The notes beneath the pieces were generated by a model that had not been told where the DNA came from, did no database searches, and worked only from the letters and a program-made list of their open reading frames with translations. From a virus: 30,868 nt of DNA. Positions 12,043 to 18,776 of the stretch are shown in pieces (position 1 is the stretch's first letter; each line of letters begins with the position of its first letter). The DNA lies in the IMG/VR virus record IMGVR_UViG_3300046093_000012, positions 1 through 30,868 of that record; one strand, written 5' to 3'. A program made the translations under genes and the position numbers.

Positions 12043-12540
12043 TTATAGTCTTATGTTTTTATTCATTGAATAGAATGCTTCTAATCGTAAAGTAATTAAC
12101 TCGTGCTGTTCTGTTCCTTTAGTGTCTATTAAAAGGTTTTCTAATAGCTCTGTTATTCTGTGCTCGTATCTTGGTCTATTTCTTTCTTTATCAAGATTGT
12201 TTTCTAATTCAAATATTCTTCTTTTAAATTCTATTATCTGTAATTGGTTTACATCTGTTGTATCTTTAGCATCCGTAGTTATGTTTAAAATTGTATTCTT
12301 TAATTCTGATAACTTAGGATTGTATTCTTCATATAGACTATAGTTCTTTAAAGAATGTATCACAGTTGCGTGGTTCTTGTTTAAACTATCTCCTATTGAT
12401 TGTAAACTTCTTTTTGGATATAATTGCTTTACTAAATAAAAGTATAAGGCACGAGCTTCTATTATCTCTCTCTTTCTACATTCTTGAGTTATATCTACCT
12501 GTAATTCTTCTTTGATTATTTCTATTATTTTTTCTTCCAT
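12043..12540 (-). CDS. DnaA domain IV-like DNA-binding protein
   Basis: This 165-residue protein matches the C-terminal DNA-binding domain of DnaA (residues 18-70) but lacks the AAA+ ATPase. It reads CRKREIIEARALYFYLVKQL, then SLQSIGDSLNKNHATVIHSL. The R.IxEAR helix, SIG and NH.TV.HS correspond to the domain IV signature (DHTTVLHA in bacteria). Residues 85-150 form a coiled coil (LQIIEFKRRIFELENNLDKE). Host DnaA binds origin boxes. This protein could mark the phage origin or hinder host initiation. It overlaps nothing but is spaced only one base from the exonuclease gene. Confidence 0.75.
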   Translation of the reverse strand: MEEKIIEIIKEELQVDITQECRKREIIEARALYFYLVKQLYPKRSLQSIGDSLNKNHATVIHSLKNYSLYEEYNPKLSELKNTILNITTDAKDTTDVNQLQIIEFKRRIFELENNLDKERNRPRYEHRITELLENLLIDTKGTEQHELITLRLEAFYSMNKNIRL

Positions 12541-13752: not shown

Positions 13753-13864
13753 ATTTTTGCTTTATAATCTTTCTATAAACTGCGTTGACTCTTTCAGAGT
13801 TCAAACCTCTATTGTAATTGAATTTCATTACTCTTTGAATTCTTTGTAGTGGTGATTGCTTCAT
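13736..13864 (-). CDS. 42-aa basic coupled ORF ending in a terminator
   Basis: This 42-residue ORF reads MKQSPLQRIQRVMKFNYNRG and ends KIIKQKLEGSN. It is strongly basic and probably helical. Its ATG overlaps the TGA of the upstream MazG-like gene (ATGA at 13864-13861). Its last codons form one arm of the terminator hairpin. It fills a gap that would otherwise be unannotated. The function is unknown; nucleic-acid binding is possible from its charge. Confidence 0.65.
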   Translation of the reverse strand: MKQSPLQRIQRVMKFNYNRGLNSERVNAVYRKIIKQKLEGSN

Positions 13865-14085
13865 AGTCTTTTAAGTTTTTCTAAATACAAAATAAGATCC
13901 ATTGCTTCTTCTTGCGCGTGGTTTATCCATTCTTTATCCGTTAAATCTTCACGGTCTAATGTAGTATTGTATTTCTTTATCCCTACTTCACTACGTTGTT
14001 TAAATTTATTAATTACTGATTGAACTACACTATCTTTAATTTGTGTTTCTATCCATTCTGACATTGTATCTTTTACTTGACTCAT
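13861..14085 (-). CDS. Small MazG-like all-alpha protein
   Basis: This 74-residue protein has the pattern of small phage MazG-like proteins. A basic helix (INKFKQRSEVGIKKYNTTLD) is followed by DREDLTDKEWINHAQEEAMD and LILYLEKLKRL. The EE..D..LY.EK part (residues 59-70) matches one metal-binding half of the all-alpha NTP pyrophosphatases. The protein is too short for the complete four-helix core, so it may act as a dimer or be non-catalytic. It overlaps the next ORF by four bases and the previous one by four. A house-cleaning or nucleotide-sensing role is an inference. Confidence 0.55.
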   Translation of the reverse strand: MSQVKDTMSEWIETQIKDSVVQSVINKFKQRSEVGIKKYNTTLDREDLTDKEWINHAQEEAMDLILYLEKLKRL

Positions 14086-14688: not shown

Positions 14689-15064
14689 TTTTATTGTATT
14701 CGTTAAACACTTTTCTTAAATCATTAATTATATCTCTCCAACAAGAAGCACAATTGCTATCATCTAATTTTACTTCAAATACTCTAAAGTAAATGCCTTG
14801 AATTTGCCATTGTTCATTTGGTGTTAAACTTCCTTTCTTTGGTGACACAAAAGGTTTTAAAGCTTCGTAGTCTGATTCAGTTAAGCAATTAACTTTTCTC
14901 CTATATGGAATTAAATTATTAAGCTTTACCTTTCGTTCTTCGCATCCACAATCTAATCCTGTTGCTTTGCTAAATACTTCTACTGCTTTTTTAATTCCTG
15001 TTACTTCTGTAATTTGCTCTATAGTATCTCCTAAACCACGAGCGGGTGCTTTTCTTTTTGCCAT
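14678..15064 (-). CDS. Conserved Cys-containing phage protein
   Basis: This 128-residue protein has the pattern GLGDTIEQITEVTGIKKAV, then KATGLDCGCEERKVKLNNL (C38, C40) and a second pair near the C-terminus, NCASCWRDIINDLR. The GLDCGCEERK motif is common in Bacteroidota phage proteins of unknown role. The four cysteines could bind zinc, joining the two halves. It starts at the stop of the sigma-like gene, with one base shared. The basic start (MAKRKAPARG) is compatible with nucleic-acid binding. The function is not known. Confidence 0.68.
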   Translation of the reverse strand: MAKRKAPARGLGDTIEQITEVTGIKKAVEVFSKATGLDCGCEERKVKLNNLIPYRRKVNCLTESDYEALKPFVSPKKGSLTPNEQWQIQGIYFRVFEVKLDDSNCASCWRDIINDLRKVFNEYNKNEQ

Positions 15065-15603
15065 TAGTACATTATATTATAATCGTTATTAATATATTCT
15101 TGATAATCATTTTCAAATTTTTCTTTCAAAATAATCTTATAATTCTTAATTGAATTAAATATTGAAATCAAACTGATATTTGTTTCTTTTGCTATATCCC
15201 GCATAGATAGATCTGTGTCTCTGTATAGCTTAAATAGTTTCCTATCGTACCAATCCCAATTTTTTATTTCTTCATCTATTAGCATACATATATCATTGTA
15301 GGCTTTGTGCTCCTCTAAATTAGAATCATCAAATAATTCCCAACACCCATCAAAAGATACTTTGTTAATCTTTTTCTTTTTATTATAGTATTGATAAAAT
15401 AAAGAACGCAAAGTAAAATACATATATCCTTTTCGAACTTCACCTGATGAATCTAAAAGTTTATCTGCATCTGCATATTTCCATAATGCAATATAAGACT
15501 CTTGAACTATGTCTTCTGCATAATCATACTCTCCAAATGTTTGAATAACTTTTATCCAATCGTTATGGTACTGTGCCACCTTGGCTAACCATTGATTATT
15601 CAT
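15064..15603 (-). CDS. Sigma-factor-like transcription regulator
   Basis: This 179-residue protein resembles an ECF-type sigma factor. Region 2 appears at residues 23-45 as GEYDYAEDIVQESYIALWKY, matching the DAEDIVQE..l..W motif that binds core RNA polymerase and melts the -10 region. Region 4, a helix-turn-helix, is at about 130-165: KLFKLYRDTDLSMRDIAKET and then ISIFNSIKNYKIIL. The N- and C-terminal parts lie in the right order, and the length is normal for a two-region sigma factor. The morphogenesis genes lack clear TAnnTTTG promoters, so this protein may direct late transcription. That link is an inference. Recognised promoters are unknown. Confidence 0.72.
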   Translation of the reverse strand: MNNQWLAKVAQYHNDWIKVIQTFGEYDYAEDIVQESYIALWKYADADKLLDSSGEVRKGYMYFTLRSLFYQYYNKKKKINKVSFDGCWELFDDSNLEEHKAYNDICMLIDEEIKNWDWYDRKLFKLYRDTDLSMRDIAKETNISLISIFNSIKNYKIILKEKFENDYQEYINNDYNIMY

Positions 15604-16134: not shown

Positions 16135-16986
16135 TTAGAATACTCCTTTTAGTGGATCATATAATGCTCCTTCGACCTGAGGCAATCCAAAGTTGTTTAC
16201 TTTAAAGCTAAACGTTTTAAATGATGCATTCCTGCTTCTTTTGCAGCTTACGGTTACCAAATCTTTGTTTACTGTATTAAGTTCTAATTGTATTTGTGTT
16301 TCTGTTTTCTTTTCTAAAAATGAACCTAAATGTCCTGTAGGTTTATCTGAGCCAAAGTTACTATGTATAACAGTTATAATATGACAATTTAATTCCTTTG
16401 TCCATTTCATTAACTTTTGAACTACTGCATTAGATTCTTCTATATTATTTACATCGGAACATAAATCAGCTACCCCATCAATAATTACTAAACCAATATT
16501 TTTACCTTCAAGCTTTTTATACAATACGTGTTCAATAAGTAAAATTCTTTCTTTAAAGTCTAATTGTCTTAAGCCGTATGTGTGATATTTATCAGTATCA
16601 ACTTCAGTCATATCTAACGGTCTTTTAAATACCATTTGACAATGAAAAGCTCCTTGCTCTGTATCAAAATGTATTAAGTGCTTGCCATCTCTATATCCTC
16701 TTATATCTCCCCCAAAAGTATCTATTTGGCCTTTCATATAAATTGCACTCAAAAGCGATATAAAAAAAGTTTTCTTACTTTTTGGAGGGGCTTGAATAAA
16801 ACTAAAGTTACCATAAGTTCCAATTGCCAATGGGTATTCTTTTAACCCATCTTTAGTTTCATAAGTTTTAAATCCAAGTGATAAAGCAGGATCAGGATGT
16901 TCAATTTTTTGCGTTGGATCTATACGTAATTCTTCTTCGTATAATTCCATTAATATTTCTATTGCATCTGCATCAAGCTTATTCAT
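16135..16986 (-). CDS. RepA-like/AAA_25 helicase-type ATPase
   Basis: This 283-residue RecA-fold ATPase resembles the RepA-like hexameric helicases of phages. A Walker A variant, APPKSKKT (residues 66-73), has Lys72-Thr73 in the usual place; the PKSxKTF form is common in Bacteroidota phage relatives. Further parts are a strand ending IHFDTEQ, Walker B GLVIIDGVADL at about 172-182, and a sensor-like HIITVIHSNFGS near 208. A C-terminal arm (LVTVSCKRSRNASFKTFSF) follows. It would act as replicative helicase or loader. Its start overlaps the stop of the MazG gene by one base, so both are co-expressed. Confidence 0.8.
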   Translation of the reverse strand: MNKLDADAIEILMELYEEELRIDPTQKIEHPDPALSLGFKTYETKDGLKEYPLAIGTYGNFSFIQAPPKSKKTFFISLLSAIYMKGQIDTFGGDIRGYRDGKHLIHFDTEQGAFHCQMVFKRPLDMTEVDTDKYHTYGLRQLDFKERILLIEHVLYKKLEGKNIGLVIIDGVADLCSDVNNIEESNAVVQKLMKWTKELNCHIITVIHSNFGSDKPTGHLGSFLEKKTETQIQLELNTVNKDLVTVSCKRSRNASFKTFSFKVNNFGLPQVEGALYDPLKGVF

Positions 16987-17741
16987 TATTTATCTTTTAT
17001 AAAAGTACCGTTTTCCATTTTTCCTGTTCGTTTGCATATAACACTGTAAGCACTATAGATACAATCTTCAATGTTATAGCCTGCTAACTTAGATAAATTA
17101 GTTAATACAACAACACAATCCCCGATAGCGTCTATAATTTCTTCTTTGTCGTTATTCAATAAAGCTTTTGCTAATTCACCCGATTCCTCTTGTAGTTTTA
17201 TATATTGTGTTTTTACATCGCCTTTGTCAAATATACCTTTTTCTTGTGCCCAATTTCTTATATCGTTGAAAATATTAATCTCAACTTTTTTATTTGCTTT
17301 AATAAAGTTAAGCAACGCATCAATATAAACATACCTTTCTTTGTTGTGTTGTGATGCAGCATTGTGTTTAAGAATCCAATCAATTACGCTATCCGTAAAT
17401 TCAATGTGTTCGCCATTTTGAAGTTCAAGTACCATTGGAAATTTATATCCGGTTAAACTTTGATCTTTAGTATTTTTAAACGTTATTGTTCTATTTGTTA
17501 AATGTATCATATTGCTCATATTTTTTTTTGTTTTATTTATAATTAGTTGTAAGTATGAATTTTTATCTTGTTTGTAATTAAAATAATTTTGATAATATAT
17601 TTCAGCATCAGAAGCATTTTTAATACTGCTTGTCTGATATAATATTTCGTAATCAGTATATCCTTGTGTTAACTCAACTCTTCGCTGTATGTTATTTGTA
17701 CACCCAACTTTAATTTCTTTTATGTGATAAATATAGTACAT
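16986..17741 (-). CDS. GIY-YIG / MazG-like NTP pyrophosphohydrolase fusion
   Basis: This 251-residue fusion has two parts. Residues 1-70 are a short GIY-YIG-type segment: MYYIYHIKEIKVGCTNNIQR, with the arginine pair R20-R21 and a Glu near 47. It lacks the rest of a full nuclease. Residues about 75-251 are an all-alpha NTP pyrophosphatase with the metal motif EESGE (185-189) and EIID (201-204), completed by D208, then NIEDCIYSAYSVICKRTGK. Such enzymes convert dNTPs to dNMP; the T4 dCTPase belongs to this superfamily. ATG 17519 (M75) has an A-rich leader and may yield the enzyme alone. The gene starts two bases after the ThyA-like stop. Confidence 0.78.
   Translation of the reverse strand: MYYIYHIKEIKVGCTNNIQRRVELTQGYTDYEILYQTSSIKNASDAEIYYQNYFNYKQDKNSYLQLIINKTKKNMSNMIHLTNRTITFKNTKDQSLTGYKFPMVLELQNGEHIEFTDSVIDWILKHNAASQHNKERYVYIDALLNFIKANKKVEINIFNDIRNWAQEKGIFDKGDVKTQYIKLQEESGELAKALLNNDKEEIIDAIGDCVVVLTNLSKLAGYNIEDCIYSAYSVICKRTGKMENGTFIKDK
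17519..17540 (-). promoter_or_regulatory. Internal translation start leader for the MazG part
   Basis: The minus strand reads TATAAATAAAACAAAAAAAAAT immediately before ATG 17519-17517. This resembles the leaders of 2411, 8327 and 9066. It lies inside the long ORF, between the GIY-YIG part and the MazG part, and suggests a second product starting at Met75. Confidence 0.5.
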
Positions 17742-17743
17742 AC

Positions 17744-18514
17744 TTAAACAGCTACGGCTGCGGTTATTTTTTTGCCTGATTGATAATTAATTATTTCCAA
17801 ATTATTATTAATATAAGTGTATTTTGGTAAATTAAAAATTGGTTGTAATAAATATTCTTTTATAGAATCAATTTGATTTTTATAAATGTGAGCATCTATA
17901 ATTTGCAATTCTAATTTATTAGCTTTTAAATTTGTTTCTGATGCAATATATAACAATGTTTTTGCAAACAAACAAATATCGTATGGAATTCCTAAAAATA
18001 AATCTCCTGATCTTTGTACAACAAACATATTCAATTTTTTATTTTTATCCACATAAAATTGAAAATATAAATAACAAGGCGGTAATGCCATCTCTTCAAG
18101 CTGTAACGGATTCCATAAACTAATTATATGTCTTCTGCTATCAGGATTTGTTTTAAGGCTATTTATAAGCATCTTTAATTGATCGTAGTATTCACTATTA
18201 AAGTTTCTTAATTGATGCCCATAAACAGGTCCTAAATCACCTGCTTCATTTGCCCAAGCATCCCAAATTTTTATATTATTATCTTTAAACCTTTGAATAT
18301 TTGTTTCGCCATTTATAAACCAATCAAATTCAGTATTAAAAGTATTTGGAAACATTTTTCTACCAGTTATAATTGGAAATTTTTTAGATACATTTACTTT
18401 TATACTTTGATTAAATAAAGAATAACTACCAACTCCTGTTCTATCATTTCGTTCAATTCCATTTTTCAAACAATTATTTAAAATTGATTGATATTTTTTT
18501 TCAAAGCTATTCAT
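17744..18514 (-). CDS. Thymidylate-synthase-fold enzyme, candidate dCMP (hydroxy)methylase
   Basis: This 256-residue protein is a full-length member of the thymidylate synthase family. Conserved parts are NDRTGVGSYSLF (25-34), E62, IWDAW (W84), GDLGPVYG, PDSRRHIISLWN, catalytic C147, QRSGDLFLGIPYD, IDAHIYKN (H209, Y211) and the C-terminal AAVAV. Two differences stand out. The residue equal to E. coli Asn177 is Asp179 (GIPYD; usual GLPFN), and the residue after the catalytic Cys is Tyr148 instead of His. Asp at this site is the known hallmark of T4 dCMP hydroxymethylase and of dCMP-accepting mutants. A cytosine-modifying enzyme is therefore more likely than dTMP synthesis, but ordinary ThyA is not excluded. 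Confidence 0.85.
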   Translation of the reverse strand: MNSFEKKYQSILNNCLKNGIERNDRTGVGSYSLFNQSIKVNVSKKFPIITGRKMFPNTFNTEFDWFINGETNIQRFKDNNIKIWDAWANEAGDLGPVYGHQLRNFNSEYYDQLKMLINSLKTNPDSRRHIISLWNPLQLEEMALPPCYLYFQFYVDKNKKLNMFVVQRSGDLFLGIPYDICLFAKTLLYIASETNLKANKLELQIIDAHIYKNQIDSIKEYLLQPIFNLPKYTYINNNLEIINYQSGKKITAAVAV

Positions 18515-18776
18515 TGGATTTATTGTTTGAATTGTTTAAAGCAGCAATATAGCCAACACAATCAAGTAATGTATCTTCTTTTATATTATAAGACATTCTG
18601 CTTATTTTTAATGCAATCATACACTTATAAAAGTCTTCTCTTGTTATTTCTTTATTACAAAGAATTGATGCTACAGATGCAGCTTTTTCCATAGACTCGT
18701 CAAATGGGCCATACATTCTTTCTTTTTCTTCAGAACGTAAGTTTATAATTTTGTTTGCTTCTTCTAATATATTCAT
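18507..18776 (-). CDS. DUF6378/Nmad1-like small helical protein
   Basis: This 89-residue protein begins MNILEEANKIINLRSEEKER. It has MYGPFDESMEKAASVASIL, then MIALKISRMSYNIKEDTLLD and CVGYIAAL. The YG...K.SR...D...D.xGY pattern matches the DUF6378-type proteins of phages and resembles the nucleotide-modification-associated domain Nmad1/DUF1599. The function is unknown. It overlaps the ThyA-like gene by eight bases, so the two are translationally coupled, which supports a role with that enzyme. The Nmad1 relation is my own reading from short motifs. Confidence 0.68.
   Translation of the reverse strand: MNILEEANKIINLRSEEKERMYGPFDESMEKAASVASILCNKEITREDFYKCMIALKISRMSYNIKEDTLLDCVGYIAALNNSNNKSNE

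Follow-up and report, generated by a model that had tools for sequence, protein, structure and literature searches.

The stretch of DNA analysed here (the window) comprises 30,868 bases of one virus record, with a GC content of 0.305 and without an exact terminal repeat. Its gene content looks like that of a tailed phage, and the host probably belongs to the Bacteroidota, as judged from a relative in a Bacteroidetes MAG. No tRNA and no Rfam RNA at the gathering threshold were found within the window. The genes at the locus are listed in Table 1. Elsewhere in the window, positions 12043–12540 encode a protein that has the C-terminal DNA-binding domain of DnaA (Pfam 2e-13) but no AAA+ match; it could direct host replication to DnaA boxes. 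A sigma-70-like protein is encoded at 15064–15603 (PHROG RNA polymerase sigma factor, 5e-07; Pfam UPF0122/sigma region 2).

Table 1. Features of the enzyme locus; coordinates are those of the window.
Feature	Position	Strand	Basis
DUF6378 protein directly upstream, 8-base overlap with the enzyme gene	18507..18776	(-)	Pfam 4.6e-15
ThyA-family enzyme of 256 aa; dCMP as predicted substrate	17744..18514	(-)	Pfam Thymidylat_synt, AlphaFold model, conservation over 82 loci
Leu144 codon, Cys-3 position	18083..18085	(-)	Leu in 82/82
Catalytic Cys147 codon (E. coli Cys146)	18074..18076	(-)	Invariant, 82/82
Tyr148 codon, replacing His147	18071..18073	(-)	Tyr in 82/82 of the clade
Asp179 codon, replacing Asn177, the pyrimidine-reading residue	17978..17980	(-)	Asp in 82/82; role from PMC8670742, PMC6400193
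C-terminal tail ITAAVAV, thymidylate synthase-like	17747..17767	(-)	Alignments
MazG-type NTP pyrophosphohydrolase partner with an extra N-terminal domain	16986..17741	(-)	Pfam MazG and PRA-PH above cut-off
Partner N-terminal domain, GIY-YIG resemblance by eye	17562..17741	(-)	Motif MYYIYHI..K(I/V)GxTxN; putative
Partner MazG core, residues 156-250, metal-binding pattern EExGE ... D...D	16992..17276	(-)	PHROG 715 match, 156-250

The enzyme is a full-length member of the ThyA superfamily with the thymidylate synthase (TS) fold. The Pfam profile Thymidylat_synt (PF00303) is matched over its whole length, from end to end, with an E-value of 7e-77. The AlphaFold model has a pLDDT of 80.8 and a pTM of 0.84, with low confidence at residues 97–99 and 143–146. 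Its best match in the PDB is a thymidylate synthase (Z 28.4, 248 residues, 2.0 Å).

The sequence-only reading had singled out several active-site residues, and alignment with canonical ThyA bears them out. Asp179 is part of GIPYD and occupies the position of E. coli Asn177. Tyr148 follows the catalytic Cys147 at the position of E. coli His147; the 24 canonical ThyA sequences aligned, from viruses and hosts, all have this histidine. Glu62, Trp84, Arg168, His209 and Tyr211 are kept, as that reading had claimed. A third difference to canonical ThyA had gone unmentioned: Lys48 of the E. coli enzyme is replaced by Arg52 in 81 of 82 loci. The remaining active-site residues that were checked are retained.

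Relatives of the enzyme were collected by a first scan of viral contigs (19 relatives, 66–98% identity), then by a profile scan, and one MAG contig was added. The resulting clade consists of 82 distinct loci including the window, and the relatives are 60–98% identical to the window enzyme. Full-text searches of the literature yielded no paper on this clade and no assayed enzyme from it. Leu144, Cys147, Tyr148, Gly170, Asp171, Asp179, Glu62, Trp84, Trp87, Tyr98, His209 and Tyr211 are invariant in all members. Since the key residues are kept in every one of these loci, the Asp/Tyr pattern is more than a chance variation. The DUF6378 gene lies upstream of the enzyme in 25 of the 82 loci. In 42 loci, the upstream position is taken by a family of about 112 residues without a Pfam match (L090:4661-4996 and similar).

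A scan with the motif RSxD...G.PYD gave at least 120 viral contigs, and the matching PFN scan supplied canonical genes. According to the residues at the catalytic Cys, the PYD enzymes fall into the types CY with QRSGD (the window clade), LPCC (MedDCM-like), CH, CP (Xp12-like) and CT (T4-like). In 122 PYD genes among the matches listed, Cys is followed by His in 52, Tyr in 43, Thr in 10, Pro in 8 and Phe in 5. In the PFN genes from IMG/VR (118 among the matches listed) the residue after Cys is His in 100 of the 104 in which the Cys could be located. The CH-type genes are preceded by short proteins related to the family of about 112 residues.

For the careful tree the trait columns were removed, and the T4-type rows were omitted owing to the long branch of T4 gp42. 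The window clade is recovered with a support of 100/99 and joins the LPCC group, its sister among the PYD enzymes, at 95/90. Canonical ThyA (23 rows, Bacteroidetes host ThyA among them) stands apart at 98/94. The Xp12-like rows form a clade of their own (100/100), and the window enzyme is not part of it. A quick tree that included the T4-type rows showed the same groups. As no root was inferred, gain and loss of Asp look alike in this unrooted tree. A single TS with the PFN motif and thus Asn (L348) joins the CH-type Asp enzymes at 100/98 and may be a reversion or an ancestor-like form. In the presumed host phylum, the PFN motif occurs in 9 of 41 genomes and the PYD motif in 1 of 296, the latter being the MAG contig of the viral clade.

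The window enzyme has neither the Asn at position 177 nor the place inside the ThyA clade that characterize canonical dUMP-specific TS. A position within ordinary ThyA, with Asp as a common natural variant, had been named as the finding that would speak against a change of substrate and was not observed. It is highly improbable that the enzyme has remained a dUMP thymidylate synthase that tolerates Asp and Tyr. Nearly all other ThyA active-site residues are kept and the nearest folds in the PDB are thymidylate synthases, which is in line with such an enzyme. However, the Asp enzymes are separated from canonical ThyA in the tree, there is no reversion across the 82 loci, and the published mutants with Asp in place of Asn have changed over to dCMP (PMC8670742).

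The MazG-type partner gene is found downstream of the enzyme gene in all 82 loci, at a distance of 30 bases or less in 80 of them and farther away in two. The acidic residues typical of MazG-type enzymes (E185, E186, E189, D204 and D208) are invariant. The model of the partner matches MazG proteins, the MazG-like enzyme of S-2L and mouse dCTPase (Z 8–10). The partner may be specific for dCTP, although the likeness of its fold to mouse dCTPase is no proof of this. In T4, the corresponding role falls to an enzyme that cleaves dCTP (PMC6400193). The Pfam profile GIY-YIG gave no match in the N-terminal domain. Seven relatives of the partner consist of the MazG core alone; thus, the N-terminal domain appears to be dispensable. 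Homologues of the partner adjoin 44 of 52 CH-type genes, 25 of 31 LPCC-type genes, 14 of 15 sampled genes of the window clade and 2 of 111 canonical genes, counts from related loci that are not independent. A short protein with no assigned function (window 13861–14085) has homologues in 62 of the 82 clade loci, commonly soon after the partner.

The MetaGPA study (PMC8670742) compared thymidylate synthases, 433 in all, between phage contigs with and without modification. Positions 147 and 177 were the two most discriminating for cytosine-modified contigs, with Asp177 mostly on modified ones. Mutation of Asn to Asp at 177 switches TS to dCMP, with 5-methyl-dCMP as the product. Furthermore, the pyrophosphohydrolase family PF01503 co-occurs with TS, often on modified contigs alone (PMC8670742). 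The window enzyme combines the Asp at 177 with the catalytic Cys, as expected for a TS homologue acting on dCMP. Because of the invariance within the clade, the tree, the association of these residues in MetaGPA and the constant pyrophosphohydrolase partner, dCMP is a well-supported prediction for the substrate.

The nature of the product is less clear. T4 dCMP hydroxymethylase lacks the TS tail and requires Asp145 at the position three residues before Cys (Cys-3); the D145N variant forms no product, and Asp or Glu at Cys-3 is the signature of T4-type dCMP hydroxymethylases (PMC6400193). Asp is present at Cys-3 in all 8 T4-type rows and in SPO1 gp29, a dUMP hydroxymethylase; the window clade has Leu throughout. 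The C-terminal tail of TS is missing in T4 gp42, SPO1 gp29 and the Xp12-like enzymes, and the window enzyme ends in a tail of the AVAV type. Accordingly, it has neither of the two T4-type hydroxymethylase features, Asp or Glu at Cys-3 and loss of the tail. The sequence-only reading had likened the Asp to the switch of dCMP hydroxymethylases: the switch in substrate stands, but not the likeness to a hydroxymethylase in these other traits. Leu at Cys-3 together with the tail, both as in TS, favors 5-methyl-dCMP. In the Xp12-like enzymes, Cys-3 is Asn and the TS tail is missing; hence, the product cannot simply be read from these features. Trp80 was dropped as a discriminator of the product since T4 gp42 retains it.

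The distribution of dihydrofolate reductase (DHFR) points in the other direction. TS depends on DHFR to restore its tetrahydrofolate, whereas hydroxymethylase does not (PMC4528723). The loci around each gene were searched with a profile built on phage DHFRs. Among the matches listed, DHFR was found near 62 of 118 canonical and 6 of 8 Xp12-like genes. It was found near none of 99 clade loci (some contigs twice), 52 CH-type, 32 LPCC-type and 10 T4-type genes, all of them related loci in which a host DHFR could serve. A low GC content does not explain this difference, as canonical loci below 36% GC still have DHFR in 11 of 22 cases. A search of entire records with Pfam DHFR_1 was discarded, as it failed to find the annotated DHFR in one of them (L119; its enzyme lies close to the RDJL1 phage enzyme).

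Absence of DHFR near the clade genes, together with the need of TS for it, favors a hydroxymethylase. Such an enzyme, with an active site unlike that of T4 gp42, would let water capture the methylene intermediate and would release 5-hydroxymethyl-dCMP and tetrahydrofolate, with no need for DHFR. It is a possible alternative of lower probability than methylation. The pattern at the clade, CH-type and LPCC-type loci equals that of the T4-type loci and differs from that of the canonical loci, AT-rich ones included, and of the Xp12-like loci. On the other hand, Cys-3 is Leu and not Asp, the TS tail is intact, and the DHFR counts are non-independent owing to the shared ancestry of the loci. Furthermore, carbamoyltransferase was without a match in 36 clade records, as were glycosyltransferase families in the scanned ORFs of one full-length relative. 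The 5hmC carbamoyltransferase family PF02543 is in itself uninformative about the product, with 0 of 36 clade records and a single match below cut-off in 50 further PYD records. The residue evidence was given more weight than the DHFR evidence, and methylation is therefore placed above hydroxymethylation. 5-Methyl-dCMP as the product, and with it a dCMP methylase that acts with the MazG partner and host replication of 5-methyl-dCTP, is held at about even confidence. The sequence-only reading had named 5-methyl- or 5-hydroxymethyl-dCMP; methylation is at least as likely, and the absent DHFR leaves room for hydroxymethylation.

For a dCMP methylase, the following pathway is proposed. In place of the uracil-reading Asn, Asp179 would bind and protonate cytosine, with Tyr148 probably readjusting the network of water molecules at C4. 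Cys147 would attack C6, and methylene-tetrahydrofolate would donate one carbon. Hydride transfer from the folate would then yield 5-methyl-dCMP, most likely the product because the residues of the last step and the tail are those of thymidylate synthase. The MazG-type partner most likely hydrolyses dCTP to dCMP, which would supply the substrate and deplete unmodified dCTP. Finally, the phage DNA would receive 5-methyl-dCTP through the kinases and the replicase of the host and may thus contain modified cytosine.

DNA polymerase A, T4-type dNMP kinase, carbamoyltransferase and dCMP deaminase were all without a match in 36 clade records, which may be fragments, so that each absence is weak singly. 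A full-length relative (G010, 67.6 kb, with the same genes at both ends) encodes RNR, a primase-helicase, ERF and crAss-type muzzle proteins; the scan of 45 of its ORFs gave Pfam families that include neither a glycosyltransferase nor a kinase. The annotated ORFs of the window do not include these crAss-type genes, and the cassette therefore seems to be present in different kinds of phages.

Alternatively, the enzyme could serve the nucleotide pool, with 5-methyl-dCMP deaminated to dTMP by a host enzyme and little modified cytosine in the DNA. The missing T4-type kinase and DNA polymerase A would fit this role, as does the dCMP deaminase that adjoins the Xp12-like or MedDCM-like enzymes in their phages. 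Nevertheless, we consider it unlikely: dCMP deaminase is found in 0 of 36 clade records, the constant MazG partner suits the removal of dCTP (compare the T4 dCTPase), and MetaGPA links the residue pair 147/177 to modified DNA (PMC8670742).

Taken as a whole, we tentatively propose that these enzymes are a widespread phage family of dCMP 5-methylases with an origin separate from Xp12. It would form a two-gene cassette with a GIY-YIG-like/MazG pyrophosphohydrolase, be carried by unrelated phages of Bacteroidota and rely on host kinases, DHFR and replicase for cytosine-methylated genomes. Against the methylase pathway as a whole stands the avoidance of CATG in the window, which would be odd if all cytosines were protected. 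CATG is absent (56 expected), CTAG occurs twice (76 expected) and GATC 21 times (53 expected). CATG reaches on average 0.47 of expectation in the clade and 0.79 in canonical AT-rich TS loci. If the proposal is right, uncultured phages that infect Bacteroidota and marine bacteria would commonly use cytosine modification at the nucleotide level, recognizable by two residues together with a partner gene. The residues and the DHFR association predict different products here, which would make the clade a test set for methylation versus hydroxymethylation in the ThyA fold.

A close likeness is to the cytosine-modification TS of MetaGPA (PMC8670742), which share the Asp at 177, an altered 147, co-occurrence with a PF01503 pyrophosphohydrolase and an origin in environmental phages. 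The MetaGPA contigs came from an experimental enrichment for modified cytosine. In contrast to them, no carbamoyltransferase was found in the clade records scanned. The top named phage hit is thyA of the uncultured marine phage MedDCM-OCT-S28-C10 (AP013540; 44.5% identity). It likewise has the Cys-Tyr and PYD motifs and an NTP-pyrophosphohydrolase nearby, but it belongs to another clade, the sister group, with an LPCC motif, FRSSD, a replaced Trp83 and a P-loop kinase and dCMP deaminase alongside. The comparison with Xp12-like enzymes rests on AXL1, DLP4 and PaMx28 and not on the sequence of Xp12 itself. AXL1 and its relatives share the Asp at 177, an adjacent pyrophosphohydrolase gene and 5-methyl-dCMP as the predicted product, and differ by Pro after Cys, Asn at Cys-3, the lack of a TS tail, dCMP deaminase and DHFR alongside and a separate clade. 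T4 gp42 and its dCTPase gp56 correspond in the catalytic Cys, the Asp179 switch and the pairing with a dCTP pyrophosphatase (PMC6400193). T4 differs by Asp at Cys-3, Thr after Cys, the missing C-terminal tail, an adjoining glucosyltransferase gene and a dNMP kinase of its own. The principle is already known from phages T4 and Xp12, and the window enzyme belongs to a large environmental branch.
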